This document shows, in pieces, positions 9,448 through 26,960 of a DNA stretch of 64,000 nt (the stretch's first letter is position 1; every line of letters starts with the position of its first letter). This DNA is from Leifsonia sp. fls2-241-R2A-40a (lineage in GTDB: Bacteria > Actinomycetota > Actinomycetes > Actinomycetales > Microbacteriaceae). The DNA is taken from NCBI RefSeq assembly GCF_030209575.1, contig NZ_JARVRS010000001.1, positions 1,984,001 through 2,048,000 on the forward strand. The letters run 5' to 3'. The notes beneath the pieces are model-generated. The model saw nothing but the letters and a program-made list of their open reading frames with translations. It was not told where the DNA came from and searched no databases. Both the position numbers and the translations under genes were made by a program.

Positions 9448-10740
9448 CTACCGGCGGGCTGACGCGAGGAGGGCCTCCGTGTGTTCGACGACTTCACGGG
9501 GTCCGTCATGCTGGCGGAGCGCCTCGCCGATGCGTTCGGCGCCCGTCCGGTAGGCGTCCCCGCCGGAGACCCGCCGCCACGCGCGCAGGATCGCACGCGG
9601 AGACGGTGTTCCCGTGCGGAGATTGATCCCGGCGCCGGCCCAGGTGACGCGGGCTGCGACTTCCGGCTTGTCCAGGTCTCCGCCCGCGACCACCAGAGGG
9701 ACGCCGTGGTGCAGCGCTGCCAGCACGCCGCCCCACCCGCCGTTGGTCACCATCACGTCGACGCGGGGCAGCAGCCGATCGTACGGGAGCAGGTCTGCGA
9801 CGCGGGCGTTCGGCGGCGCAGGGAACGGCAACTCGCTGTTCCCGCGCACTCCGGTCGCGACGGCAAGCTGTACCCATTGACGTCCGAGCGCTGCGAATGT
9901 CGGCCGGATGAGGTCGGCAGGATCCACATTCTGGGTGCCCTGCGTCACGTGCACCACCGGACGCGGGTCCGCGAGCGATTCCGGCCACCACGCGGGCTCC
10001 GGGATGCCGCTCCCGGCATGGTCTGCGAGTTCGCCGACCCAGACGATCCGCCCCGGCCACTGAGGCCGGGGGTACTCCAGTTGCTCGACGCCGCTGGCGC
10101 ACACCAGATCGCGCGAGTACAGCGCCTCCTGGAAGGTGAGTGCCGTCGGTGGAAGGCCGGCGAGCGCGCGTTGCTCGTGGAACGCACGCTGAATCGGGCG
10201 GGATGCGGCCGAGAGCGCCGCCCAGAGTGCGCGGTCTCGCAGGCGGCCGAGCACCGACGTCGCCGGTTGCAGGCCCAGGCCGGGCGGCGGAGCACCCGGG
10301 GAGGGCGTCGCGAGGGGGACGAGCGCGACCGTGACCCGCGGAGTGCCGGTCCGTTCGGCGGCCAGATGCGCGCCGAGGGAGAGACCGTCGGCGACGAGGA
10401 CATCCCAAGGCCGCCTGTCGAAGGACGCCGTCAGGTCGGCGCACTGCGCGGCTCCCGTCCGGACGAACAGGTCCTCGACGTTCACGATCAGCTGGCGGGG
10501 CCCCTTCCGGCCGCGCAGCCGCGGGAACGTCGGGGACAGGTCGTTCTCGTCGAAGTCCGGCGCCCTCATCCACAGCACCGGTTCCGCCCCGTCGGCGCGG
10601 AAGGCGTCGGCGTGGGCCGACCCTGTGTACACGCGCACCCGGTGCCCGGCCGCAGAAAAGGCGCGTGCTACCGCCCGCATCGGCGCGACGTGGCCGGAGA
10701 ACGGCATGACCGCGAGCATCACCTCTGCCATGGCAGCCAT
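9448..10740 (-). CDS. UGT/MGT-type glycosyltransferase
   Basis: 430-residue GT-B glycosyltransferase of the family that includes macrolide and zeaxanthin glycosyltransferases (GT1). The N-terminal acceptor domain starts with AVMPFSGHVAPMRAVARAF. The C-terminal donor domain carries VTNGGWGGVLAALHHGVPLVVAGGDLDKPEVAARV, the family's donor-sugar signature. It would transfer an NDP-sugar to a small hydrophobic acceptor. The start is ATG at 10740 or 10731. It follows the flavin operon after a 102-base gap on the same strand, so it may be read through from it, but nothing ties it to flavin chemistry. Confidence 0.85.
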   Translation of the reverse strand: MAAMAEVMLAVMPFSGHVAPMRAVARAFSAAGHRVRVYTGSAHADAFRADGAEPVLWMRAPDFDENDLSPTFPRLRGRKGPRQLIVNVEDLFVRTGAAQCADLTASFDRRPWDVLVADGLSLGAHLAAERTGTPRVTVALVPLATPSPGAPPPGLGLQPATSVLGRLRDRALWAALSAASRPIQRAFHEQRALAGLPPTALTFQEALYSRDLVCASGVEQLEYPRPQWPGRIVWVGELADHAGSGIPEPAWWPESLADPRPVVHVTQGTQNVDPADLIRPTFAALGRQWVQLAVATGVRGNSELPFPAPPNARVADLLPYDRLLPRVDVMVTNGGWGGVLAALHHGVPLVVAGGDLDKPEVAARVTWAGAGINLRTGTPSPRAILRAWRRVSGGDAYRTGAERIGEALRQHDGPREVVEHTEALLASARR

Positions 10741-10842: not shown

Positions 10843-11343
10843 TCACTCGAGCAGTACCTTGACCTTGCGCCGGTGCCACACGATCGGCGCCGGTAGCTCG
10901 TCGCTCATCAGGGACAGGACCCGGAGCACGATGATGTCGTGGTCGCCGGCCGGGTAGGTGTGCTCGACGACACACTCCAACCACGTGGGCGAGCCTTCGA
11001 GGAACACCGCACCGGACGGCAGTTCGGCCTTGCGTACGCCGCGGAGCCGGCTCTGCTTGTCCCGTGACGCCAACTGGCTCGTCTTCCCCGCGTGGTCTGC
11101 TCCCAGGACGGACACTCCTATCGTCGGCGCAGCCGCCAGGTCCGGCCAGGTGGTCGAACTGCGCTGCACAGCGAACGACACCATCGGGGGATCGAAGGAG
11201 ACGCCGACCGAGAACGATGACGCGATCATCACCACGGGCTCGTCCGCGATCGTTGCGGCGAGCGCCGCCACCCCGGAGGGGAAGCCCGCGAATGCGGCCC
11301 GCATCTCGTCCGGATCGGTCGTGAAGTCGTACGTCATCGTCAT
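10843..11343 (-). CDS. Flavin reductase, split-barrel type (RutF/HpaC-like)
   Basis: 166-residue FMN-binding split-barrel protein: [47 protein letters not shown] follows the pattern of NAD(P)H:flavin reductases such as RutF and HpaC. It would provide FMNH2 to the two FMN-dependent monooxygenases encoded upstream in the operon. The ATG at 11343 overlaps the stop of the preceding reductase gene by four bases (ATGA), so it is translationally coupled. It is the last gene of the coupled run. Confidence 0.88.
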
Positions 11344-11843
11344 CGCGATCGCCCCTCGCCGAGCGACGCCTGAATGGCGGCGCCCCAAGCCGCGACGTAC
11401 TTGTCCAATGTGCCGTCCTCCGGGTACCGGGAGTCCAGCTGGTACAAGCCCTGGGCCGGGCAGACCGCGCCGAGTTCGACGAGCACCGGCTTGAGGCTGA
11501 GTTCAGGAGCGAGTGCGTGGGCGGGGCCGGCGCCCAGCATGAACGGCACCGCGACCTGTCCGGCGAGGCCGTCGGCCGTCGCGAACTGGTCGAGGAAGAG
11601 TTTGAGCAGGCCGGAGTACGTGCCCTTGAAGGTGGGCGACGCGGCGATCACGAGGTCCGCCTCCTGCACCCGGGCTACAGCCTCCCGGACGAGCGGATCG
11701 CCGAAGCCGAGGAGCCCGTGGCCCAGCTCGGAGACCTCGATCGTCTCCGCTCGCGCGCCAAGGGCTGCGGCGAGGCGCTCGGCGGCGTCGCGGGTGCGCG
11801 ACTGCGGCTTGGGATTGCCCACGATGACTGCTGCTGTGACCAT
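11340..11843 (-). CDS. NADPH-dependent FMN reductase (SsuE-like flavodoxin fold)
   Basis: 167-residue flavodoxin-fold reductase. It begins [21 protein letters not shown] (phosphate-binding loop for FMN) and has [20 protein letters not shown], the segment typical of SsuE/MsuE reductases of two-component monooxygenases. It is a second, structurally unrelated flavin reductase in the same operon, as if each monooxygenase had its own partner. The start shares one base with the stop of the transporter-kinase fusion (TGATG) and the end overlaps the next gene by four bases. Confidence 0.9.
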
Positions 11844-13600
11844 CAGGCCTTCGTCCTTTCGTCTGATTCGCGGTCGCGGAGCAGGGAGCGTGCGTCCCGC
11901 TCGTCGTCCCGCATCGCCTGGATGAGCTCCTCCGCGGTGCCGAAGGCGCGCTGGGCGCGGAGGAGGAGCCCGGGGGTGAGCTCGGCGCGGCGGCCGTACA
12001 GGTCGCCTGCGAAGTCGAGGACGTGCACCTCGACGGTTCTCGCCCGGCCGGGGAAGGTGTCGTTGCTGCCGACCGAGATCAGCGCGGGCCGGGGCTCCCG
12101 CCAGGTCTCGGCCCGGAAGGCGCCGACGTACACGCCGTCGGCGGGCGAGCGGGCCGGGTCCTCCAGATCGAGGTTGGCGGTGGGGAAGCCGAGGTCGTGC
12201 CCGGTCCCGGCTCCCGGCACGACGGTGCCCACGAGGACGTCGTCGGCCGCCGGGCGCGCCGGCAGGAGGGCCGCGGCGACGATGCTCACCACGCCGACGG
12301 CCGCCAGTGCGGCGAGCGAGGCGGCGGTGCCGGTCGCCGCGAGCACCACCGACGTCACGGCGCTCCCCAGCACGGCACCGAGCTGCTTCATCGCGTTGAA
12401 GGCGCCGGACGCCGCGCCGATCGACGACCGCTCGACCGAGCTGACCGTCGCGATCGAGAACGGCGACCACAGGAACGAGTTCGCGATCCCGAACAGGGCG
12501 AAGACGGCGGCGATAGCCAACAGCGGCGCCCCGGCCCAGACGAGCGCCGCCGTGCCGCCGATGGAGGCGACCAGCGCCGCGCCGCCGATGACGGCGACCA
12601 CCCGTAGGCCGACCGTGTTGTTGAGGCGTGCGGAGAACGGCGCAGCAACGAGGCAGACCAGCCCCATCGGCACCAGGACGACCGACGCCGTGACGACATT
12701 CAGCCCGCGCTCGGCCTGCAGCGCCAGCATCAGCGGGATGGGCGCGGAGCCGACACAGAACGCAGCGGCGGCGGCGCCCCAGGACGCGGTGACGAAACCG
12801 CGGCGGCGGAGCAACGCGACGGGCAGCAGCGCACGGTCGCCCGACCGCCGCTGCACCCACACCACGCCGACCACGAGCATGATGCCGACCACGACGAGGA
12901 GCCACCGCGGCACCCCCGCAACGGTGGGCGATGCGGCATCGGTGCCCTGGATCCCGAGCACCAGTGCGCATCCGCCGAGCGCGTTGCCCGCCATCGCCCA
13001 CAGCGGGATGCGCGCCGGATGCCGCTCGGAGACCGGCACCCATCGCAGGACCGCGACAGCGGTGACCAGACCGATCGGCAGGTTGACCGCGAAGATCGAC
13101 GGCCAGCCTGCGGCCCCGACAAGGAGCCCGCCGAGGATCGGCCCGGCGACTGTCGCGGCTCCGCCGACCGCACCCCAGATCCCGAGGGCGATCGCGAGCC
13201 GCGGCGGGGCGAACAGCGTCCGGATGATCGTCAGGCACTGCGGAGTCATGAGCGCCGCCCCGACCCCCTGCGCGACGCGCCAGCCGATCAGCGAGCCGAT
13301 GTCCTGCGACAGCGCGCACAGCACCGAGCCGACGGTGAACGCCGCAAGCCCGATCAGGTAGACCCGCCGGCGGCCGAACCGATCGCCGAGCCGGCCCGCG
13401 ATCAGCAGCGGGACGGCGTAGGCGATGAGGTAGCCGCTATTGACCCAGATCGCGAGGGTGGCCGTGGTGCCGAGGCCCGTGATCAGCGCGGGCAGAGCCA
13501 CCGAGGTGATGGTGCTGTCCAGCAGGAGCATGAAGAAACCGAGGCAGAGGCTGCTCAGGGCCAGCCAGTCCGCGGTCGACCGCCGCACCGCGCCGCTCAT
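11843..13600 (-). CDS. Fusion protein: MFS (DHA2-type) transporter with C-terminal riboflavin kinase domain
   Basis: 585-residue single reading frame. Residues 1-~450 are a 14-helix major facilitator of the EmrB/QacA type ([15 protein letters not shown] in TM1, [13 protein letters not shown] loop 2-3). Residues ~455-580 (bases ~12238-11850) are a riboflavin kinase domain: G[14 protein letters not shown] (the PTAN ATP/Mg motif), [16 protein letters not shown] (canonical NPTF with Pro to Asp), and [16 protein letters not shown] with the catalytic-type Glu. No FAD synthetase domain is present. Inference: transport coupled to FMN formation (uptake with trapping as FMN) or local FMN supply to the operon's monooxygenases. 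The DHA2 type is usually an exporter, so direction is open. The start lies 1 base after the upstream stop. Confidence 0.9.
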
Positions 13601-13601
13601 C

Positions 13602-14936
13602 TCAGACCGCCAGATTCTCGCGAAGCGTCGACCCGGGATAGCGCGGCGCCAGCGCCCCGCGCCGGCGGAGCTCGGGCATGAGCAGCTCGCTCAGCTCGGC
13701 GAGGCCGGACGGCATCGACAGCGGGCTCGACAGCATGTACCCGCCGCGCGACCCGGTCTGCGCGAAGTTCTCCTGCAGGGCGTCCGCCACCGTCGCGGCG
13801 TCGCCGACGATGGTGTGGTCCAGCCCGGTCGCAGCCCCGAAGCCGTGCGTGAAGAACTCCGCCCGGGTCAGGGTGTGGTCCTCACCGAGCTCGGCCACGA
13901 GCGAGCCGACGAAACCGGCAGGGCTCGCCTGGGCCGCCACGATCTCGTCGCGGAGATCGCCCAGCCGGAACGAGTCCGGCAGGGTCGAGAAGTCGTACCC
14001 GGCGTTGTGCGACAGCATCGCGCCGACGGCCTCCTCCGTCCAGAAGTCGAGCACCGCATCCCGCCGGGCCATCGCCTCCGCGGTGGTGCGACCCACGATC
14101 GCCTGCGTGGCCCAGAGGATGCCGACCTTCGCCGGATCCCTCCCCTCGGCGACGAGCGCCTCGTCGAGCATCCGGCGGTGCCGCTGCTGGCCGGGAAGGC
14201 TGCCGCCGAACCCGAAGACGAGGTCGGCGAAGGACGCCGAGCCCGCGATGCCGCGGGGCGAGTTGCCGGCCTGCACGATCAGCGGGTGCACCTGTGGGCT
14301 CGGTACGGAGGCGAGCGGCCCCTTCACCGTGAAGAACTCGCCGTCGTGGTCGATCGGGTGCACCTTCGACGGGTCGGCGAACCGCCCGGTCGCCGCATCG
14401 CGGATGATCGCATCCGGGGCGACCGAGTCCCACAGCGCCCTGCACACGCGGATGAACTCCTCCATCCGCTCGTACCGGAGGTCGTGGTCGATGAGCTGGG
14501 CGTAGCCGTAGTTCGCCGCGTCGGCCCCTCGGCTCGACGCCACGACGTTGAAGGCGATCCGGCCTCCCGTGACGTGGTCGAGCGAGTTGAGGAGGCGGGC
14601 GACATAGAAGGGGTGCATGAAGGTCGAGGAGTAGGTGAGCCCGAAGCCGATCTTCTCGGTGACCATCGACATCGCAGCGATGACCGGCGACATGTCCTGC
14701 CTCGGCCACTGGATGCCCCACTCGACCGCCGGGTCGATGCTCCCCCGCCAGGTGCTCGGGATGCCCGATCCATCGCCGAAGAACAGCATGTCGACGCCGG
14801 CGCGCTCGGCGGTCTTCGCGACCTCCAGGTACATGCGGACGTCGGGGAACTGCTGCCCGACCCACGAACCCGGCTGCGCCCAGCGGCCCTCGGTGTGCGT
14901 GAAGGAGAGGTCGTACGCGATATGCATGCCGCTCAT
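13602..14936 (-). CDS. FMN-dependent monooxygenase, NtaA/SnaA/DszA family
   Basis: 444-residue class C flavin monooxygenase with a luciferase-like barrel. It has the NtaA/SnaA/DszA landmarks: MHIAYDLSF start, [40 protein letters not shown], and [21 protein letters not shown]. Such enzymes use FMNH2 delivered by a separate reductase to attack S- or N-containing organics (EDTA, NTA, sulfones, pristinamycin). Riboflavin hydrolase RcaE is reported to be of this type. The ATG at 14936 overlaps the isochorismatase stop (ATGA). The substrate is not given by sequence; see the operon finding. Confidence 0.9.
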
Positions 14937-15592
14937 GCGGTCACCCGCTTCCAGAGCGAGACGACCTCGTCGCTGTCCGAGAGCACGGCGACATTGAGCT
15001 CCAGCTGGACCAGCGCCGCCTCGTTCACGGCCAGGTCGTACGCGGCCGTCGCGTCCCGCGGCACCACGACCGGCCAGTCGAGCTGCATCGCATCCTGCGC
15101 GGTGGCGTCGACGCAGCACTCGCTGGTGAGGCCCACGATGGTGAGCCAGTCGTAGCCGGCGGAGCGCATCCGCTGGTCGAGGTCGGTCCCGAGGAAGCCG
15201 CTGTAGCCGCGCTTGACGACCCGCAGCTCGCCGTCGGCGGGCTGCATGCGGTACCACTCCGCACCCGCCGAGCCCACGATGCAGGGCTCTGTCGGGGCCA
15301 TCGGTGCATCGTAGTCGCCCTCGCGCAGCCAGTTGCTGGAGCGCCACGGGCGCGCCGGGTCGCTGCCCAGCTCCACCCAGACCACCGGGACGCCGGCCTC
15401 GCGGGCGGCGTCGACCAGGGCGCCGATCCGGGTCACCGTCGCGTCGAGCTCGGCGACCACCTCCTCGGTCAGCCCGTAGGCGCCGAGCGCGGCCGGGTCG
15501 CCGAAGTCGCGCTGGACGTCGACGACGACCAGGGCGGGCGTGGTGCCCGGCCGGGTCAGCTGAGCGAGCTGCGCATCGCGGAGGGCGCTCAC
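14933..15592 (-). CDS. Isochorismatase-fold cysteine hydrolase (RutB-like)
   Basis: 219-residue alpha/beta hydrolase of the isochorismatase superfamily with a complete catalytic triad: Asp25 in VVVDVQRDF, Lys127 in VVKRGYSGF and Cys160 in GLTSECCVDATA. Members hydrolyse amides and ureides; RutB hydrolyses the peroxyureidoacrylate made by RutA. The neighbour upstream is a RutA-like oxygenase whose stop overlaps this gene's GTG start (GTGA at 15589-15592). The pair therefore looks like a ring-opening oxygenase plus ureide/amide hydrolase. Confidence 0.9.
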   Translation of the reverse strand: MSALRDAQLAQLTRPGTTPALVVVDVQRDFGDPAALGAYGLTEEVVAELDATVTRIGALVDAAREAGVPVVWVELGSDPARPWRSSNWLREGDYDAPMAPTEPCIVGSAGAEWYRMQPADGELRVVKRGYSGFLGTDLDQRMRSAGYDWLTIVGLTSECCVDATAQDAMQLDWPVVVPRDATAAYDLAVNEAALVQLELNVAVLSDSDEVVSLWKRVTA

Positions 15593-16653
15593 CGGTCGCC
15601 GCCCGCATCGTGGGCCCGGAGGGCCGGGAGGACCGTCTCGCCGAACAGCACCATGTCCTGGTCGTACTCGGGGAAGATCAGCATCAGGCCGTCGAGGTCC
15701 GCCTCGCCGACGATGTACTGGATGTGCTCGGTGACGGTGTCCGCAGAACCGGCCACGTAGGCGGTCTGGAAGGCCGCCTCCCCGACCGCGCCCGACGCCC
15801 AGGCCCGGGCCTGGTCCTCGGGCACGCCCCACGACGCGCGCATGTTCGCCAGCGCCTCCCGGTCGACGCCCGCGCCCCACTCCTTCACCTTCGCCTCGGC
15901 GAGCGCGTCCGTCTCCGCCTGGACGACGGTGAGCATCGAGTAGGTCTTGCAGACCCGCCCGTTCGCCGCCGCCCGGGCGTGGACGTCGGCCGAGAGGTCC
16001 TTCATCTCCTCCAGGCTGTCGCCGGCGAGGAAGGCCCCGTCGGCGAACCGAGCCTGGAAGGCACGGGCGGCCTCCGACTTGCCCGCGCTGATGATGGTCG
16101 GCGTGGACGAGGGGTGGGGACGCGACTCGCAGTCCACGAGCTCGAAGTACGGCGTGCGCATGGTGACGGAGTCCTCGGTCCAGAGCCGGGTCACCGCCTC
16201 CGTCCACAGCTCGGTCATCGTGTATCGGTCCGCGTGGCTGAGGGTCGCGTCCCAGATCCCGAACTGCTCGAACTCCCCGGCGTAGGCGCCGTTGACGATG
16301 TTCATTCCCGCGCGGCCGCCGGACACGTCCTGCAGCGTGGCGTACATCTTCGCCGCGACTGCCGGGTTGTGCACGTTGGCATGCATGGTGGCCCAGATCT
16401 GCACCCGCTCCGTCGCCTCGGCGAGCGCCGACATCATGGTCATCGACTCCAATGAGCGGCCCCAGTGATCCGTGGTCCCGCCGAAGCCGCGCCATTTCGC
16501 CATCGACATGATGAAGTCGAGGCCGATGTTCTCGGCGTGCACGGCCGCGCGCTTGTTCCAGGCGTACGTGGCTTCGGGGTGGGGGGCGGTGGTGGAGAGC
16601 ATCCAGCCGCCGTTTCCGATCGGGAGGAAGATCCCATAGTCTTTCGCGGGCAT
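15589..16653 (-). CDS. RutA-like FMN-dependent monooxygenase (luciferase-like)
   Basis: 354-residue luciferase-like monooxygenase. The N-terminus (YGIFLPIGNGGWMLSTTAPH) and the block MSMAKWRGFGGTTDHWGRSLESMTMM closely parallel the uracil-cleaving pyrimidine oxygenase RutA as I recall it ([39 protein letters not shown]). RutA opens the uracil ring between N3 and C4 with FMNH2 and O2. Here the true substrate may be uracil-like or a fused-ring relative. RutC, RutD and RutE homologues are absent. The ATG at 16653 has AAAGG upstream. It follows the solute-binding protein after 30 bases. Confidence 0.85.
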   Translation of the reverse strand: MPAKDYGIFLPIGNGGWMLSTTAPHPEATYAWNKRAAVHAENIGLDFIMSMAKWRGFGGTTDHWGRSLESMTMMSALAEATERVQIWATMHANVHNPAVAAKMYATLQDVSGGRAGMNIVNGAYAGEFEQFGIWDATLSHADRYTMTELWTEAVTRLWTEDSVTMRTPYFELVDCESRPHPSSTPTIISAGKSEAARAFQARFADGAFLAGDSLEEMKDLSADVHARAAANGRVCKTYSMLTVVQAETDALAEAKVKEWGAGVDREALANMRASWGVPEDQARAWASGAVGEAAFQTAYVAGSADTVTEHIQYIVGEADLDGLMLIFPEYDQDMVLFGETVLPALRAHDAGGDR

Positions 16654-16683: not shown

Positions 16684-17796
16684 TTACGGGGCGGGCCAGA
16701 TGAGCGTGTCGCCCGTGTAGATGGCTTCGATGTAGGAGTTGTCGAACCACTTCGCCGCCGTGTCACCGGTCACGGAGTCGGGGACGATCTGGAACTGGTG
16801 CAGCATGTCGACGAGCTTCGTGACGTTCTTCGGGTCCATGCCTCCGAGCGGCTGGTCGGGGGTGGGGTTGTCGGCCACGACCTGCGTCTCGGTCTTCCAG
16901 ATGGTCGCGTTGAGCTTCTTGTCGTAGGTGGCGCCGCCGGACAGGTCCGCGGCGAAGCCGACGCACTCCTCGATGTTCGCGTCGCTCGCGGTGCAGTAGT
17001 CGTAGGCGTGCAGGGCGGCGCGCAGGATGTCCTGCACCGCCGTCGGGTGCGCCTTCGCGAACGCCGGGTTGACGGCCATCGCGCCGAGGGAGCTCGGGAT
17101 GCCGTACGTGACCGGCTGCCAGACCGTCACCTTGTCGCCGGCCGCCTTGAGCTGGTTGGGCTCGTTGGAGATGAAGCCGGTCAGCGCCGCGAGGCCGTCC
17201 TGCTTGCGGGGCAGCACCGAGGGGTCATAGCCCTCCTTGACCAGCTTCAGCGAGTCCCAGGCGACGCCGGCCTTGACCATCATCGCCTCCACCGACGCGG
17301 GGACGTAGCCCTTGTGGCCGACGACCTGTCCGTCAAGCTGCGTGAGGTCGGTGATGCCCGGGTTGGTCATCAGGATGTCGAGGCCCGCGTTCGAGTAGGA
17401 CGAGATGCCCTCGATGTCGATGCCGTTGGCGCGCGCCTGGATCAGGTCCTGCTGCGCGATGGCCGAGACGGTCGCCTGCCCGCTCGCGAGCAGCTTCGTG
17501 TTCTGGGCGGTGTCGCCGCTTCCCGGCTTGAGCGACACGTTCAGGCACAGGTCGGAGAAGTAGCCGAGCTTGCTGGCGGCGATGTACTCCAGGATCGAGG
17601 CGGAGGACTGGAACTGGTAGCCGGAGAGGTACGTGATCGGGCCGGCCGCCTTGTTCTGCTCGCAGCGCTTGGACGAGATGGCGGTTCCCGACGATGCGGA
17701 GCCGGTGGACGATCCGGAACTGCAAGCGGCCACACCGAGCGTCAGGACGACGGCGGTGAGGGACGCGAGCCCGGCCTTGATGAGACGGTGCTGCAT
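16684..17796 (-). CDS. ABC transporter substrate-binding lipoprotein, NMT1/THI5 (SsuA/ThiY/RibY) type
   Basis: 370-residue lipoprotein with signal peptide and lipobox LGVAACS (Cys about 25). The mature part has the NMT1/THI5-like layout: ASKLGYFSDLCLNVSLKPGSGDTAQNTKLLASGQATVSAIAQQDLIQARANG. This SBP family binds sulfonates, pyrimidine thiamin precursors and, in RibY, riboflavin. It is encoded with its own permease and ATPase directly upstream of the flavin monooxygenases, so it very likely delivers their substrate. Confidence 0.88.
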   Translation of the reverse strand: MQHRLIKAGLASLTAVVLTLGVAACSSGSSTGSASSGTAISSKRCEQNKAAGPITYLSGYQFQSSASILEYIAASKLGYFSDLCLNVSLKPGSGDTAQNTKLLASGQATVSAIAQQDLIQARANGIDIEGISSYSNAGLDILMTNPGITDLTQLDGQVVGHKGYVPASVEAMMVKAGVAWDSLKLVKEGYDPSVLPRKQDGLAALTGFISNEPNQLKAAGDKVTVWQPVTYGIPSSLGAMAVNPAFAKAHPTAVQDILRAALHAYDYCTASDANIEECVGFAADLSGGATYDKKLNATIWKTETQVVADNPTPDQPLGGMDPKNVTKLVDMLHQFQIVPDSVTGDTAAKWFDNSYIEAIYTGDTLIWPAP

Positions 17797-17904: not shown

Positions 17905-18765
17905 TCAGTCGGTGGAGCTCTCGTGCCAATGCAGGGCACGACGCTCGATCAACGTGATGACGCCGAGCAGGAGGACGCCCATGACGGCCAGGACGAAGAT
18001 GGCCGAGTAGACGACGGCGAGCTGGTTCATCGACGACGCGACGCTGATGACCGTCCCGAGACCGCCCGTCGAACCGGACGCGGAGAGCTCTGCGACCACG
18101 GCGCCGATGATCGAGAGCGGGAAGACGATGCGCAGGGCCGCGAAGATGTAGGGGAGCGCGTTGGGGATGCGCAGGTGGACGAGCATCTCCAGCCGCGAGG
18201 CATCCATCGTCTTGTACACCTGCATGACCTGCTGCGGGACGGAGCGCAGACCGACCGCGGTGTTGATGAGGATGGGGAAGAAGCAGATCAGCGCCGTGAT
18301 GATGAGCTTGGGCAGCGGTCCGAACCCGAAAGCGACGACGAGCGCGGGGGCGATCGCCACCAACGGCGTGACGTTCAGCACCACGGCGATCGGCATGATT
18401 GCCCTCCGCGCCAGCGGGAGCTCGCTGATCAGCACCGCGATCACGAAGGCGGCGACGAAGCCGATGGCCAGTCCGGCCGTCGCCTCGCCCAGAGTGATCA
18501 GGGCGTTGCCGAGGTAGTACCCGAGGTTGCCGCCCAGGGAGTCGCCGATCGCCTGCAGCGGCGGGAGCAGGTACGGCATGGAGGCCGCGCCCCACTGCCA
18601 GAGGCCGCCGAGGACGGCGAGCATGGCGATGAGCGGCAGCCACACGGCCGGGTGGATCCAGGCGATGCGGGACTTGGGATGCTTGAGGCTGAACCGCGAA
18701 GGCTCGGCGGGGACGTCCTCCTGCAGAGGGGGCGACACGGTTGCTCGTTCTGTTGCGACGCTCAT
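17905..18765 (-). CDS. ABC transporter permease, SsuC/TauC type
   Basis: 286-residue inner-membrane permease with about six hydrophobic segments and the EAA-type loop (KTMDASRLEMLVHLRIPNALPYIFAALRI) that contacts the ATPase. The layout matches nitrate/sulfonate/taurine and ThiX-type permeases. The ATG at 18765 is chosen because GGGAGG lies 5-6 bases upstream. It follows the ATPase gene after 10 bases and precedes the SBP gene by about 108 bases. Confidence 0.9.
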   Translation of the reverse strand: MSVATERATVSPPLQEDVPAEPSRFSLKHPKSRIAWIHPAVWLPLIAMLAVLGGLWQWGAASMPYLLPPLQAIGDSLGGNLGYYLGNALITLGEATAGLAIGFVAAFVIAVLISELPLARRAIMPIAVVLNVTPLVAIAPALVVAFGFGPLPKLIITALICFFPILINTAVGLRSVPQQVMQVYKTMDASRLEMLVHLRIPNALPYIFAALRIVFPLSIIGAVVAELSASGSTGGLGTVISVASSMNQLAVVYSAIFVLAVMGVLLLGVITLIERRALHWHESSTD

Positions 18766-18775
18766 CGCTGCCTCC

Positions 18776-19606
18776 CTAGGCCGCATCCGTCGATCGCCAT
18801 GCGGAGTGCAGGCGGTCCCTGATCAGGTCTTCGTATTCGTGGAAGCGACGCTCCTCGAACAGCTTCTGGTTGCGCGGACGCGGCAGGTCGATGTCGATCA
18901 CGTCGACGATCCGTCCCGGTCGCGGCGCCATCACGACGACCGTGTCGGACATGCGCACGGCCTCGGACACCGAGTGCGTCACGAACAGGACGGTCGTCTT
19001 CAACTCGTCCCACAGATCGAGGAGCTGGTCCTGGAGGCTCTCGCGCGTGAACTCGTCGAGCGCGGAGAACGGCTCGTCCATCAGCAGAACATCGGGCTGC
19101 AGGCCGAACGCGCGCACAATGGCCGCGCGCTGCTGCATGCCCCCGGAAAGCTGGGCGGGGAGCTTGTGGGCTGCGTCCGCGAGGCCGGCGCGGTCGAGCA
19201 GCTCGAGCATGTCCGGGGCCGGCATGCGGTCGCCGCGGTCGGCGAAGTCGCCGATGCGCTGCCGTCGCTTGGCCGCGCCCGGATTGATCTTCTGCGGCAG
19301 GCTGACGTTCTTCAGCACCGTCAGCCACGGCAGCAGCGCCGGCGTCTGCGGCACGAGCCCGATGAGCTTCGCCGCGCCCGCCTCGCTCGGCGTCACGTCG
19401 TGGACGCGCACCTCACCGCGATCGGCGGTCTCGAGGCCGGCGACGATGCGCAGGAGCGTCGACTTGCCGCATCCGCTCGGCCCGATCAGGCTGACGAACC
19501 GTCCCGGCTCGATCGACAGACCGACGTCCTTCAGCGCGATCATCGCCGAGGAACCGTATCCGTAGGCCTTGCCCACCGAGGTCAGTTGTACCGCTGGCGT
19601 CACCAT
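18776..19606 (-). CDS. ABC transporter ATP-binding protein, SsuB/TauB type
   Basis: 276-residue ATPase with all landmarks: Walker A GPSGCGKST, Q-loop LVPQTPALLPWLTV, signature LSGGMQQR, Walker B VLLMDEPFSALDE and the switch His in FVTHSVSEA. It powers the NMT1-type importer and is the first gene of the flavin operon. The ATG at 19606 has GGAGGG 6-7 bases upstream; the longer frame reaching 19747 is rejected. The 160-base leader up to the next gene shows no FMN, TPP or SAM riboswitch core that I can recognise. Confidence 0.92.
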   Translation of the reverse strand: MVTPAVQLTSVGKAYGYGSSAMIALKDVGLSIEPGRFVSLIGPSGCGKSTLLRIVAGLETADRGEVRVHDVTPSEAGAAKLIGLVPQTPALLPWLTVLKNVSLPQKINPGAAKRRQRIGDFADRGDRMPAPDMLELLDRAGLADAAHKLPAQLSGGMQQRAAIVRAFGLQPDVLLMDEPFSALDEFTRESLQDQLLDLWDELKTTVLFVTHSVSEAVRMSDTVVVMAPRPGRIVDVIDIDLPRPRNQKLFEERRFHEYEDLIRDRLHSAWRSTDAA

Positions 19607-19765
19607 CCACACCCTCCATGCCGTGCACGAACCCGTCAGGCCCGTTCCCAGATGGCGGAGAGCGTGCGCGGCGAGTTCGATGTCTGCCGCGCGGAGTCCG
19701 CTTGTTGATTCACCACCGTAGTAAGGCCGTGTTTCGCGAAGTCGCACCGGGATATTGCGCGCATG

Positions 19766-20191
19766 TTAACTCTGGTGGGGCAGCGGCACGACGTCGTCGC
19801 CGTCGAGCACCCAGACCTCGACGCCCAGGTCGGCGGCCGCCGTCGACACCCATCCGCCCAGCGCCTGAGCGGTCACCGTGGTCACGACCAGCGCGGCGCG
19901 TGCCACGTCCGCGAACACCTGCCGCAGCCAGATGACCTTGAGCATGTCGGCCAGCACCTTGTTGCGGAAGGCCGGCTTGTACGCGCCCTGGTTGGCCACC
20001 AGCTGGACGACGATCGTGCCGGCCGCGTCCATCCCCTCGACCTCGACCCGCACCCCGTCCGCGACCATCAGCTGGCGAGGGCGGAGCGCGGTGCCGACAC
20101 GGTCGCTCAACGCGGACAGCATCCGCCGTTCGACCGAGCCCTCGGCGAACCGGTTCCACTCGCCCGCTCCGGACGCGTCTGCCCCTGCCAT
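19766..20191 (-). CDS. Conserved hypothetical protein, possibly nuclease-like fold
   Basis: 141-residue soluble protein starting MAGADASGAGEWNRFAEGSVERRML. The order of a variable helix, a strand with VEVEG, then VQLVANQGAYKPAFRNKVLADMLKVIW is vaguely like small restriction-endonuclease-fold proteins, but no catalytic set is clear. It lies on the minus strand upstream of the ABC operon with a 159-base gap, and is divergent from the ferritin-like gene. Function unknown. Confidence 0.6.
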   Translation of the reverse strand: MAGADASGAGEWNRFAEGSVERRMLSALSDRVGTALRPRQLMVADGVRVEVEGMDAAGTIVVQLVANQGAYKPAFRNKVLADMLKVIWLRQVFADVARAALVVTTVTAQALGGWVSTAAADLGVEVWVLDGDDVVPLPHQS

Positions 20192-20270
20192 GTCGTCAGG
20201 GTAGGCAGTCGGGATTTCCGTCAGGTTTCGTCGCGACGAGCGAAGCCTGACACGGGGACGATGTCGGTCC

Positions 20271-21149
20271 ATGATGGACGTGATGGCAGATCGCATCTCT
20301 CCGCAGAGGATCCTCGAGCACGTCCAACGGCTCGGGGAGCAGCATCCGCCGATCGCTCTCGACTCTGTCGACCGTGACGTCCGCGCACCGGCGGCCGTCG
20401 CCGATCGCTACGGCCACGTCATCGACTACCTCGCGCGGGTGGAGCTCGAAGTCGACCGGAACGTGCTCGAGCTGCTCGTCCTGCTGCCGGACGTGCACGA
20501 AGTCGACCGCATGTTCTACGCCGACGTGTGGCAGCCGCAGGAGATCCAGCACGGACTGATCCTCGACCGTCTGCAGCAGGATCTCGGCCGTCCCGCGGCC
20601 CAACCGGAGCTCGCCGTCTCGTTCAAGATCAAGATCATGGGCGCCCTCGCTCACTTCTCTTCGATCCAGGACATCGCGCGGCTGCTCTACTACCTGACCG
20701 GCGCGAGTACCGAACGGCAGGCGGTGCTGGCGTACAACGTCCTCTACGACGGGATGCTGGACCTCGGCGAGCCCGCGATCGCCGAGACGATCATCAGCCC
20801 GATCCGCAGGCAGGAGCCGGGCCACTTCGCGTTCTACCGGATGAGCGCGACGCAACTGGTGCAGAGCGGCGAGCTCAAGCCGTGGCAGCTCTACCTCGCG
20901 CGCATCCTGAGGGAGAAGACGTACAACCTCGTCGGCACGAACGGCCAAGACCGCTACCGCGCCCAGATGGGTGGCGTCGCGAGCGTGCTCGGGTTCGCCG
21001 ACGACCTCGAGAAGTACGCGCGCGAGGTCGGCCGGATCGAGGCGCAGCTGCTCTGGGCGCAGCACAGCGGCATGGAGTTCCCGCCCTACGTGCTCAAAGC
21101 GCTCAAGGAGAGCGTCGACCTCTACCGGGAACGCGGGTTCAACGCCTGA
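20271..21149 (+). CDS. Ferritin-like (acyl-ACP desaturase-like) diiron protein
   Basis: 292-residue (289 if the ATG at 20283 is used) all-helical protein. It shows the spacing of a four-helix diiron site: Glu in RVELEVDRNVLE, EIQH in the second helix (WQPQEIQHGL), Glu in EPAIAETI and EPGHF in the fourth (RRQEPGHFAFY). This resembles acyl-ACP desaturase/ferritin-like proteins of actinobacteria, some of which carry misleading GTPase names in databases. It may be a desaturase or an orphan oxidase; there is no genetic partner here. Divergent from the small unknown gene. Confidence 0.7.
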   Translation: MMDVMADRISPQRILEHVQRLGEQHPPIALDSVDRDVRAPAAVADRYGHVIDYLARVELEVDRNVLELLVLLPDVHEVDRMFYADVWQPQEIQHGLILDRLQQDLGRPAAQPELAVSFKIKIMGALAHFSSIQDIARLLYYLTGASTERQAVLAYNVLYDGMLDLGEPAIAETIISPIRRQEPGHFAFYRMSATQLVQSGELKPWQLYLARILREKTYNLVGTNGQDRYRAQMGGVASVLGFADDLEKYAREVGRIEAQLLWAQHSGMEFPPYVLKALKESVDLYRERGFNA

Positions 21150-24202: not shown

Positions 24203-26935
24203 TCAGAAGCGATGCGAGGGCGACGGCGCTTCGGCCGGGGACGAGACTCGTGTCGGGTCGCTACGGGATGCTCGGGCGAGTTCGCGGCGGGCGGCGATCC
24301 GGGACTTCTCGAGCGTCTCTTCTCGGGGCTGACGCTGCATAGTGTCGGCCAGCTCGCTGATTGCGGTGCTGGTGGTTCCTGCGATGACGATGGCTTCGTT
24401 TCGTCCTCGTCCGCGGGTGAGTCCGACGTAGAGGCCTGCCGCATCGACGCCAGGGCCGACGATGGATCGTTCGGTGGTTTCGCCTTGGACGCCGTAGACG
24501 GTGCTGGCGTATCCGAGATGCAGGTGGGAGCCGGCGTACTCGTGGGTGATCTTCCTCAGGTGGGACGAGTCGCTAACGCTGGCGAGGAGGACGTGATCTT
24601 TAGTGATGGCCCTGATGATCCAGGTTTGACGGTTCTCCACTCCGGAGATTCTGTCGTTGCGTCGAGTCTGAACGACGTCGCCCACGAAGCACGGCTGATT
24701 CGCCTGACCGAGCACTTGACGGTCGGTGGTGAGGGCGCCGGACGCGACGCGGTGTGTCTGGATGCTGTCGTTGATCTGCTGGGCTTCGGCGTGCGTGGCG
24801 GTGACGAGTGCAATCGTCTGGCCGCGAAGGGTGGCATCAAACCATCCGTCAACCATGATCTGCCGGGCGTCGCCCTCGGCGGTGACGGAAGCGACGTGCC
24901 CCTTGTCGATCAGCTCCTCTGCGAGCCGCTGTGCTTCTTCAGCGCCGTCGGCGTCGCGGAGTCGCAACGTGAGATCAGCCCAATCGGGATCATGAAATCG
25001 GTGGATGTTCGTCAGTTCGACTTCAACGAACGCTGCGGATCGGAACAGGGCCATCGCGCCGGAGTGTCCGACGGGGAGGGCTTGGTAGTCGTCGCCAACG
25101 ACCGCGATAGTTGCTCGCGTGCGTTCGATGACGTCCAGAAGAGCGTTTGCGGCTTCGAGATCGAGCATGCCGGCCTCATCGACCACGATCCGGTCACCCG
25201 GTCGGATCGCGATTCGAGGGCCTCGATACTCCGCTCCGGTCGTTGGGTCGACAGCTCCGGGGAGCAGTCGCGTCCACACTGTGCTGCCAGAGGTGCTCTC
25301 TGTCCACCGCCATCCGTAGTCATGGAGGAGCTGGTGGAGGGAGGAAGCGGCGCTGTTGGTTTCCCTCCCGGCGACTGTCGAGGCCCTCTTGGTCGGAGCG
25401 ACGATGACCATGTTGTGTCCGTGCCGGCGAAGCGCGGCTCCGGCGACCTTGAGCATGGTGGTCTTACCCGTTCCTGCGGCGCCGGTGACGGAGACGATCG
25501 AGGCTGTGCCGGCAAGTGCGGCAGCACCATCGCTCTGGTCACCATCGAGGACGCGCTCCGGGTCGAGCGCGTGAGCGATCGCCGTGATCTCGCGGGCTGA
25601 GACGGCATCTCCGGGTGCTGCCATCGCGTCGATCCGGTTCGCGAGAGTGGTCTTCACGACAACCGTTGCGATGGACATCCGATGCTTGACGTGCTTCGGC
25701 ATATCAGGCTCGTTCAGCAACGTCACCGTGTAGGTGCGAGTAGCAGCCTCTGAGACCGCGTCAATAGTTGCCGCAAGCTCACTGCGCTCGCCCAGAACCC
25801 CAGAGGCCGCGATCGCGCGAATGGCGCCGGCCCGGATGTCCATGTCGCTGAATCGGCCGCCCGTGCCTGTTGACCGTGTATCCGCATCAACGACTGCTCT
25901 GGCCGCCAGAAGCTCCAGATCCAGGTCGTCAATCGAGACTGCAGCCAGACGAGCGGGGGAACGGGTTTCACTGATCGTCGGGTCCGCCGACCTCATCTCT
26001 TGGCGGATGAGCTCGGTCCAGTCGTCTTCGTCCAGGTTGCCAGGTTTGTTCGGTCGGCCGGCGGCCCAGGCCCATCGGTCGATCTGATTCAGCACATCAC
26101 GGGAGGGTTCCTGCCCGCAGTGCTGTTGCTTCCACCAGACCGTGCGGATGGTCTTGTTGGCTTCGATCTGCGCGGACCGCTTCGACAGCGGCCGCACCAG
26201 GTGCTGCAGCTGGGTGATCTCCCCCTCGGCGTTGAGGGTGAACCCTTTCGCGGCGAGGGCGGTGATCCAGGTGGGGTCGGTGCGGGAGGCGAGGTCGCCT
26301 TCGGCGTTGATCACGTTCTGGAACCGCAACGCGACCCGGGTGTCGATGTTGGACCATTTGCGGTCTTGCCCTTGGACTTTGACGTTGAGCCAGAGGTGGC
26401 GGTGCTTGTGTGGATCCAGGGAGCGGGAGCGTTCGTGGCGGAGTTCGACGATCTCGATGCGGGCGAGGTCTTCGCGGACGCTGCCACCTTGGCCGCGGCG
26501 GGCGTTGAGCTCGGACTGCCACAGTTTCACTATCCGGTCGCGGAGCCGGTCTTGCAGGTCCTCGTACGCGGCGGCGAGGTCGGGGTCGAGCATGGTGGCG
26601 ATCGAGAACGACTTCGGGGCGTTGATCGTCGCATCCAAGATCAAGTCCGCGACGGGGGACTCCAGGTCGCGTCCGCGACGTTCCCCGGTCAGCGGGTCGA
26701 GTCCGTCCACCCAGTCCTTGAGCTGGTCTCCGGTGAGCAGGTCGTCGCGGACGGCACCATTCTCGACGATGTAGCGGGTCATCAGAGCGCCGGCGTAGCC
26801 GGCGGCGGCAATGACACCGTCAGCCGTTTTAGCGGTGAGGGTGGCGTCACAGACGCCGGAGAAGGCGTACTGGACTGCTTGCTTGACCCCGTGGGACTGC
26901 TGTCCCCGCTTCCACCGGGCTACTCCACCGCGCAC
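24203..26935 (-). CDS. MobF-type conjugative relaxase with C-terminal helicase
   Basis: 910-residue TraA/TrwC-type protein. The relaxase part (1-~340) holds the metal-binding histidine cluster PHKHRHLWLNV. The helicase part shows Walker A GAAGTGKTTM, Walker B RIVVDEAGML, the GDDYQALPVG motif and the C-terminal motif YVGLTRGRGRN, so the superfamily 1 helicase is complete. It would nick oriT and unwind the transferred strand. The GTG at 26935 is preferred to the one at 26941, because AGGGAGGTGA sits at proper spacing only for 26935. The very N-terminus is not the usual MobF start, and the nicking tyrosines cannot be assigned with certainty. No mating-pair genes are present. Confidence 0.85.
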   Translation of the reverse strand: MRGGVARWKRGQQSHGVKQAVQYAFSGVCDATLTAKTADGVIAAAGYAGALMTRYIVENGAVRDDLLTGDQLKDWVDGLDPLTGERRGRDLESPVADLILDATINAPKSFSIATMLDPDLAAAYEDLQDRLRDRIVKLWQSELNARRGQGGSVREDLARIEIVELRHERSRSLDPHKHRHLWLNVKVQGQDRKWSNIDTRVALRFQNVINAEGDLASRTDPTWITALAAKGFTLNAEGEITQLQHLVRPLSKRSAQIEANKTIRTVWWKQQHCGQEPSRDVLNQIDRWAWAAGRPNKPGNLDEDDWTELIRQEMRSADPTISETRSPARLAAVSIDDLDLELLAARAVVDADTRSTGTGGRFSDMDIRAGAIRAIAASGVLGERSELAATIDAVSEAATRTYTVTLLNEPDMPKHVKHRMSIATVVVKTTLANRIDAMAAPGDAVSAREITAIAHALDPERVLDGDQSDGAAALAGTASIVSVTGAAGTGKTTMLKVAGAALRRHGHNMVIVAPTKRASTVAGRETNSAASSLHQLLHDYGWRWTESTSGSTVWTRLLPGAVDPTTGAEYRGPRIAIRPGDRIVVDEAGMLDLEAANALLDVIERTRATIAVVGDDYQALPVGHSGAMALFRSAAFVEVELTNIHRFHDPDWADLTLRLRDADGAEEAQRLAEELIDKGHVASVTAEGDARQIMVDGWFDATLRGQTIALVTATHAEAQQINDSIQTHRVASGALTTDRQVLGQANQPCFVGDVVQTRRNDRISGVENRQTWIIRAITKDHVLLASVSDSSHLRKITHEYAGSHLHLGYASTVYGVQGETTERSIVGPGVDAAGLYVGLTRGRGRNEAIVIAGTTSTAISELADTMQRQPREETLEKSRIAARRELARASRSDPTRVSSPAEAPSPSHRF

Positions 26936-26960
26936 CCGCACTCACCTCCCTCACACGTCG

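Follow-up and report, generated by a model that had tools for sequence, protein, structure and literature searches.

An MFS transporter fused to a riboflavin kinase domain in a conserved oxygenase operon of Leifsonia

The window analysed here is a stretch of 64,000 nucleotides from Leifsonia sp. fls2-241-R2A-40a, to which the coordinates given below refer unless a locus or contig is named. Its minus strand carries an operon of nine genes. In the order of transcription, these encode the ATPase of an ABC importer (18776..19747, with a true start probably ∼40 codons downstream), the permease (17905..18786) and the NMT1/THI5-type substrate-binding protein (16684..17796) of this importer, LLM2, a RutA-like FMN-dependent monooxygenase (15589..16653), an isochorismatase-fold amidohydrolase similar to RutB and biuret hydrolase (14933..15592), LLM1, an FMN-dependent monooxygenase of the NtaA/DmoA family (TIGR03860; 13602..14936) whose nearest solved relative is DszA, a fusion of an MFS transporter with a riboflavin kinase (11843..13600), an SsuE-like NADPH-dependent FMN reductase (11340..11843) and a flavin reductase (PF01613; 10843..11343). 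The fusion gene, the seventh of the nine, starts one base past the stop codon of LLM1, and its own stop overlaps the ATG of the FMN reductase gene; several other junctions in the operon overlap as well. The gene order is conserved in Leifsonia, Compostimonas, Streptacidiphilus, Streptomyces and another Microbacteriaceae genus (genome G296), with the FMN reductase absent in some of them. Directly downstream on the same strand lies a glycosyltransferase gene of the EryCIII/UDPGT type (9448-10740), apparently outside the conserved set. Upstream of the ABC ATPase, also on this strand, an ORF of 176 residues (19766-20296) has no Pfam match and could be coupled to the operon.

The fusion gene is a single uninterrupted frame of 585 residues that runs on the minus strand from the ATG at 13600 to the TGA at 11843, and its codon-position GC is gene-like, with 0.93 at the third position. 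Residues 1-445 (12266..13600) form the MFS transporter part, residues 446-455 (12236..12265) a linker and residues 456-575 (11876..12235) the riboflavin kinase (RFK) domain. In Pfam searches, MFS_1 matched residues 17-411 (E 7.5e-55) and Flavokinase matched residues 456-572 (profile positions 8-123 of 124, E 6.5e-27), the score for PF01687 being 94.7 bits for a curated cut-off of 19.6. Pfam found no FMN-adenylyltransferase domain in the protein. The linker varies from a few to ∼45 residues across orthologues, as expected between independent domains. A preliminary description of this DNA had read the frame as genuinely joining a 14-helix MFS transporter to an RFK domain, and both Pfam and AlphaFold agree with this reading. 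The kinase signatures that it quoted are present, including the third one, SVGSNDTF.

The preliminary description had also suggested a search for the same architecture in other genomes. We found it, each time without internal stops, in Leifsonia sp. C5G2, L. virtsii, Compostimonas suwonensis, Streptacidiphilus jeojiense and G296. In the genus of the window, 7 of 28 genomes carry the fusion, i.e. the window's own genome and six further Leifsonia genomes, two of which appear to be C5G2 and L. virtsii again. It is rare at the family level, with 3 of 300 genomes above the threshold. These full-length orthologues indicate that the fusion is not a sequencing or assembly artefact, and they exclude the error or frameshift at the MFS-RFK junction, splitting the gene, that had been raised as a concern. 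Pairwise dN/dS values of 0.10-0.39 for the RFK part and 0.05-0.24 for the MFS part indicate that purifying selection acts on both halves of the protein. Plasmid-borne copies were sought in PLSDB, where there was no full-length match. MFS-RFK is a transporter-enzyme architecture for which we found no description in the literature searched, mainly papers available without subscription. LplT-Aas likewise joins an MFS transporter naturally to a cytoplasmic enzyme, in that case an acyltransferase (PMC11416262), but its enzyme, cargo and organism group are unrelated to those of MFS-RFK.

The MFS part has 14 membrane helices in the AlphaFold model of the fusion protein. The lysine and arginine residues of its loops are distributed with a strong bias (20 inside versus 2 outside), so both termini, and with them the kinase domain, are expected on the cytoplasmic side. 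With its 14 helices, the transporter falls among the exporters of the DHA2 group and shares fold and family with EmrB, QacA and EfpA, from which it differs by a score under the EmrB subfamily cut-off and by the additional C-terminal kinase domain. Its most likely role is the export of a product or of surplus substrate, a direction read only from its family. In Streptomyces, the orthologous MFS proteins encoded in the same operon end without a kinase, suggesting that the kinase is accessory. A tree of the MFS parts with distant outgroups did not resolve the topology. In a tree of concatenated ABC and LLM2 sequences, the Streptomyces clade (100/100) falls among the fused lineages, the base again not being resolved. 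Thus, one gain of the kinase followed by a later loss, possibly in Streptomyces, or a spread of the fusion could both account for the present distribution.

The RFK domain matches the RFK module of C. ammoniagenes in sequence (E 1e-16). The kinase domain of the full-length AlphaFold model was unusable and was therefore modelled alone (pLDDT 71). With this model, the best PDB match obtained by Foldseek was the RFK of CaFADS (5A89, E 8e-8, TM 0.73). The PTAN motif (residues 473-476), the catalytic Glu (524) and the DLYG segment are invariant across all fused proteins. Moreover, T474, N476 and E524 of the fusion, kept in all of them, align with T208, N210 and E268 of CaFADS, each of which is essential for RFK activity (PMC2573891). 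The isolated C-terminal domain of CaFADS phosphorylates riboflavin on its own (PMC2573891). From these similarities, we infer that the fused kinase would convert riboflavin and ATP to FMN. The NPTF loop, which reads N513-D514-T515-F516 here, has D, E or Q in place of the proline in every fused kinase, whereas the proline is kept in nearly all RibF rows of the alignment and in the three RcaA-like proteins examined. The P-to-D change pointed out in the preliminary description is thus real, but it belongs to a clade-wide replacement and is not a private mutation. It might point to a different substrate or reaction rate.

In a phylogenetic tree, the fused RFK domains form one group (100/99), apart from RibF and from the RcaA-like proteins, and a long stem branch of 1.35 changes per column separates them from RibF. 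An ordinary RibF is intact in the same genome, at C1:147051, and most sampled actinobacteria have a single RFK only. The tree and the intact RibF rule out an origin of the fusion from this genome's RibF, which had been supposed to have lost its FAD-synthetase half and gained a permease. By this evidence the fused kinases are a separate old lineage, not this RibF minus its FMN-adenylyltransferase half. In summary of the likeness to bifunctional RibF/CaFADS (PDB 2X0K; RFK module 5A88-5A8A), the RFK fold, PTAN, the catalytic glutamate and DLYG are common to both, whereas in the fusion an MFS transporter stands in place of the FMN-adenylyltransferase half, the NPTF proline is replaced by D, E or Q and the kinase falls in its own clade.

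Among the oxygenases, LLM2 comes closest to RutA and retains the equivalents of four of the five dioxygen-pocket residues of RutA (T105, N134, V136 and F224, with M for L65), for a RutA numbering offset of 19 that was deduced from residue identities. For LLM1, DszA is a closer match than RcaE. The operon resembles the Rut pyrimidine-degradation operon (RutA, RutB, RutF) in its RutA-like oxygenase, its isochorismatase-fold hydrolase and its flavin reductase. However, it has no RutC, RutD, RutE or RutG and contains instead the ABC importer, a second LLM enzyme and MFS-RFK. The equivalog scores of LLM2 (236 bits versus a RutA cut-off of 498) and of the hydrolase (62 bits versus a RutB cut-off of 378) rule out an ordinary rut operon.

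A dedicated RFK in an operon of FMN-dependent oxygenases is already known from riboflavin catabolism (rca), a precedent that the preliminary description had missed. The rca cluster of Microbacterium maritypicum was reportedly described by Xu et al. in 2016, with RcaA as the riboflavin kinase, RcaB as the flavin reductase and RcaE as the FMN-dependent monooxygenase, and RcaA is said to convert part of the flavin to FMN cofactor. A query with the RcaE segment taken from PDB 5W48 found an RcaE orthologue in 14 of 400 Microbacteriaceae genomes; RcaE and the five-gene rca set have been documented previously (PMC12746152). The genome of the window gave no RcaE orthologue at E 1e-150 and Pfam detected no ribokinase among the nine operon genes, which rules out an ordinary rca operon. 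All of the 12 rca loci that we read contain RcaE, a flavin reductase and an ABC importer homologous to that of the window, and in seven a stand-alone RFK of ∼135 aa adjoins RcaE and the flavin reductase. Five rca-type loci (L044, L048, L110, L114 and L115; RcaE 78-80% identical) had no detectable RFK within the 13 kb read, suggesting that the kinase is optional there too. Both operon types therefore combine an NMT1-type ABC importer, an FMN-dependent LLM monooxygenase, a flavin reductase and a dedicated RFK. They differ in that the window's operon has neither RcaE nor a ribokinase and instead encodes two LLM enzymes of other kinds and a hydrolase similar to RutB. Moreover, its RFK is fused to the MFS transporter and lies on a separate branch of the RFK tree, whereas the RFK of the rca loci stands alone.

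The relationship between the two operon types varies from one component to another. In a tree that also included 27 further binding proteins of the NMT1 type, a limited sample drawn from 16 Actinomycetes genomes, the window-type binding proteins are sister to the rca ones and form an exclusive clade with them (100/98). The identity within this clade is only ∼30%, so the ligands may differ. Neither the flavin reductase nor the fused RFK had a sister relation to its rca counterpart in the corresponding trees. The importer thus seems to be common to both operon types by descent, while the kinase was seemingly recruited separately. An operon of soil actinobacteria that had so far not been characterised is thereby connected with the family of transporters that serves riboflavin breakdown, and the operon's substrate can therefore be sought from a short list of candidates. 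Three related actinobacterial operons (L026, L027 and L028) have the same ABC clade together with a RutA-like LLM2, and an RFK was not detected in them.

We then considered the neighbourhoods of additional kinases in two Pfam-based samples, one of 200 Microbacteriaceae and one of 150 Streptomyces genomes. More than one RFK was present in 12 genomes. The extra RFK lies within 10 kb of an LLM gene in at least 7 of these 12 (two fusions, four rca loci and Streptomyces G930), four genomes with an unlocated or doubtful extra RFK being taken as unlinked. In contrast, the same search found an LLM gene near none of 20 RibF genes (Fisher p 2e-4, for a test that used only seven LLM queries, with controls partly from other genomes and related genomes that are not independent). 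Extra RFKs in two actinobacterial groups hence tend to adjoin genes of FMN-dependent oxygenases, suggesting that local FMN supply is a recurring solution. In three Streptomyces genomes whose operon lacks the kinase, another RFK is encoded outside the operon and close to a separate LLM oxygenase cluster. At these loci (L135:1818-9408, L136:9262-16865 and L137:2584-3090), this second RFK is a stand-alone protein of ∼168 aa with RATF for NPTF, and genes for a GntR-type regulator and an ABC transporter are also found near the LLM cluster. In G930 (L139:7983-10269), the extra RFK is ∼1 kb from the LLM gene. In the remaining one of the 12, the Microbacteriaceae genome G087, the extra RFK (L138:9619-10170) stands alone, and no LLM gene lies within 10 kb.

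The rca-clade binding protein and the extra RFKs beside LLM oxygenases make FMN supply the best supported explanation. The fusion would be a dedicated FMN-producing kinase that is tethered to the operon's own transporter and supplies FMN to the oxygenases, a reading to which we give a probability of about 0.57. It starts from the fusion itself, its conservation, the kinase fold with its catalytic residues, the predicted cytoplasmic placement and the conserved operon. From these we infer FMN supply as the purpose, the direction of transport and the type of substrate. The ABC importer would take up a small, probably nitrogen-heterocyclic compound, which the RutA-like and DszA/NtaA-like oxygenases would attack by means of FMNH2 and O2; the oxygenase product would then be cleaved by the RutB-like hydrolase. 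At the cytoplasmic face, the RFK would make FMN from riboflavin and ATP, the two adjacent reductases would reduce it for use by the oxygenases, and the MFS part would export the product or excess substrate. Of the two ideas put forward in the preliminary description, FMN supply to the coupled monooxygenases is the better one, in view of the extra RFKs that adjoin LLM oxygenases and of the rca precedent. However, several points speak against it. RibF could make FMN without a fused kinase, and there is no explanation for why the kinase is joined to the transporter and not to an oxygenase or a reductase. Moreover, the extra RFK of G087 stands away from LLM genes, the Streptomyces operon has an MFS without a kinase, and all the fused kinases have lost the NPTF proline.

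A second reading, compatible with FMN supply but naming a substrate, is that the operon degrades a flavin, i.e. riboflavin, lumichrome or an analogue. The ABC system would import this flavin, the RFK would turn part of it into FMN cofactor, and the remainder would be degraded by the oxygenases and the hydrolase, perhaps through opening of the uracil-like ring. We regard this as possible, at clearly lower odds. The exclusive clade formed by the binding protein with those of RcaE-containing operons fits such a role, as do the resemblance of LLM2 to RutA, an opener of the uracil ring whose dioxygen pocket is mostly kept, and that of the hydrolase to RutB. Dedicated RFKs also occur in rca operons, and C. 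scindens has one in its fin neighbourhood, which riboflavin induces (PMC12934955). However, RcaE is not found in the genome nor a ribokinase in the operon, LLM1 is nearer to DszA than to RcaE, and neither the flavin reductase nor the RFK groups as sister to its rca counterpart. The low identity within the binding-protein clade would also allow for different ligands, and this clade includes the operons L026-L028, in which an RFK was not detected. A more specific version, in which we have still less confidence, is that the operon would break down flavins aerobically by a second pathway, different from rca. The rca-type ABC system would import a flavin, the RutA-like enzyme would open the isoalloxazine at its uracil-like ring, the RutB-like hydrolase would act next and the transporter-tethered RFK would keep part of the flavin as FMN cofactor.

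The other idea of the preliminary description, that the MFS part imports riboflavin, which the fused kinase at once converts to FMN that cannot leave, now appears improbable. The predicted cytoplasmic position of the kinase suits this geometry, LplT-Aas is a case of an MFS transporter fused to an enzyme that acts on the cargo, and an MFS riboflavin transporter, RibZ (COG2814), is known in C. difficile (PMC4418817). However, the MFS part falls in a group of exporters, an ABC importer is already present in the operon, and Streptomyces has MFS orthologues without a kinase in the same operon. The host also makes riboflavin, as judged from a DHBP synthase gene that lies under an FMN riboswitch at a rib locus elsewhere in this genome. 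Rfam searches found no FMN riboswitch, the upstream element taken as a mark of known riboflavin importers (RibZ, RibXY, RibM and ImpX), in the window or in the fused loci L003-L006, which rules out a riboflavin importer controlled by such a riboswitch. Finally, a kinase-like domain that phosphorylates something else, or that only binds a flavin as a sensor regulating the transporter, would agree with the clade-wide replacement of the NPTF proline and with the long stem branch, but the invariant PTAN, catalytic Glu and DLYG and the purifying selection on the domain make it very unlikely.

Elsewhere in the window, an ORF of 912 residues on the minus strand (24203-26941) resembles by eye a conjugative relaxase-helicase and perhaps comes from an integrated element.
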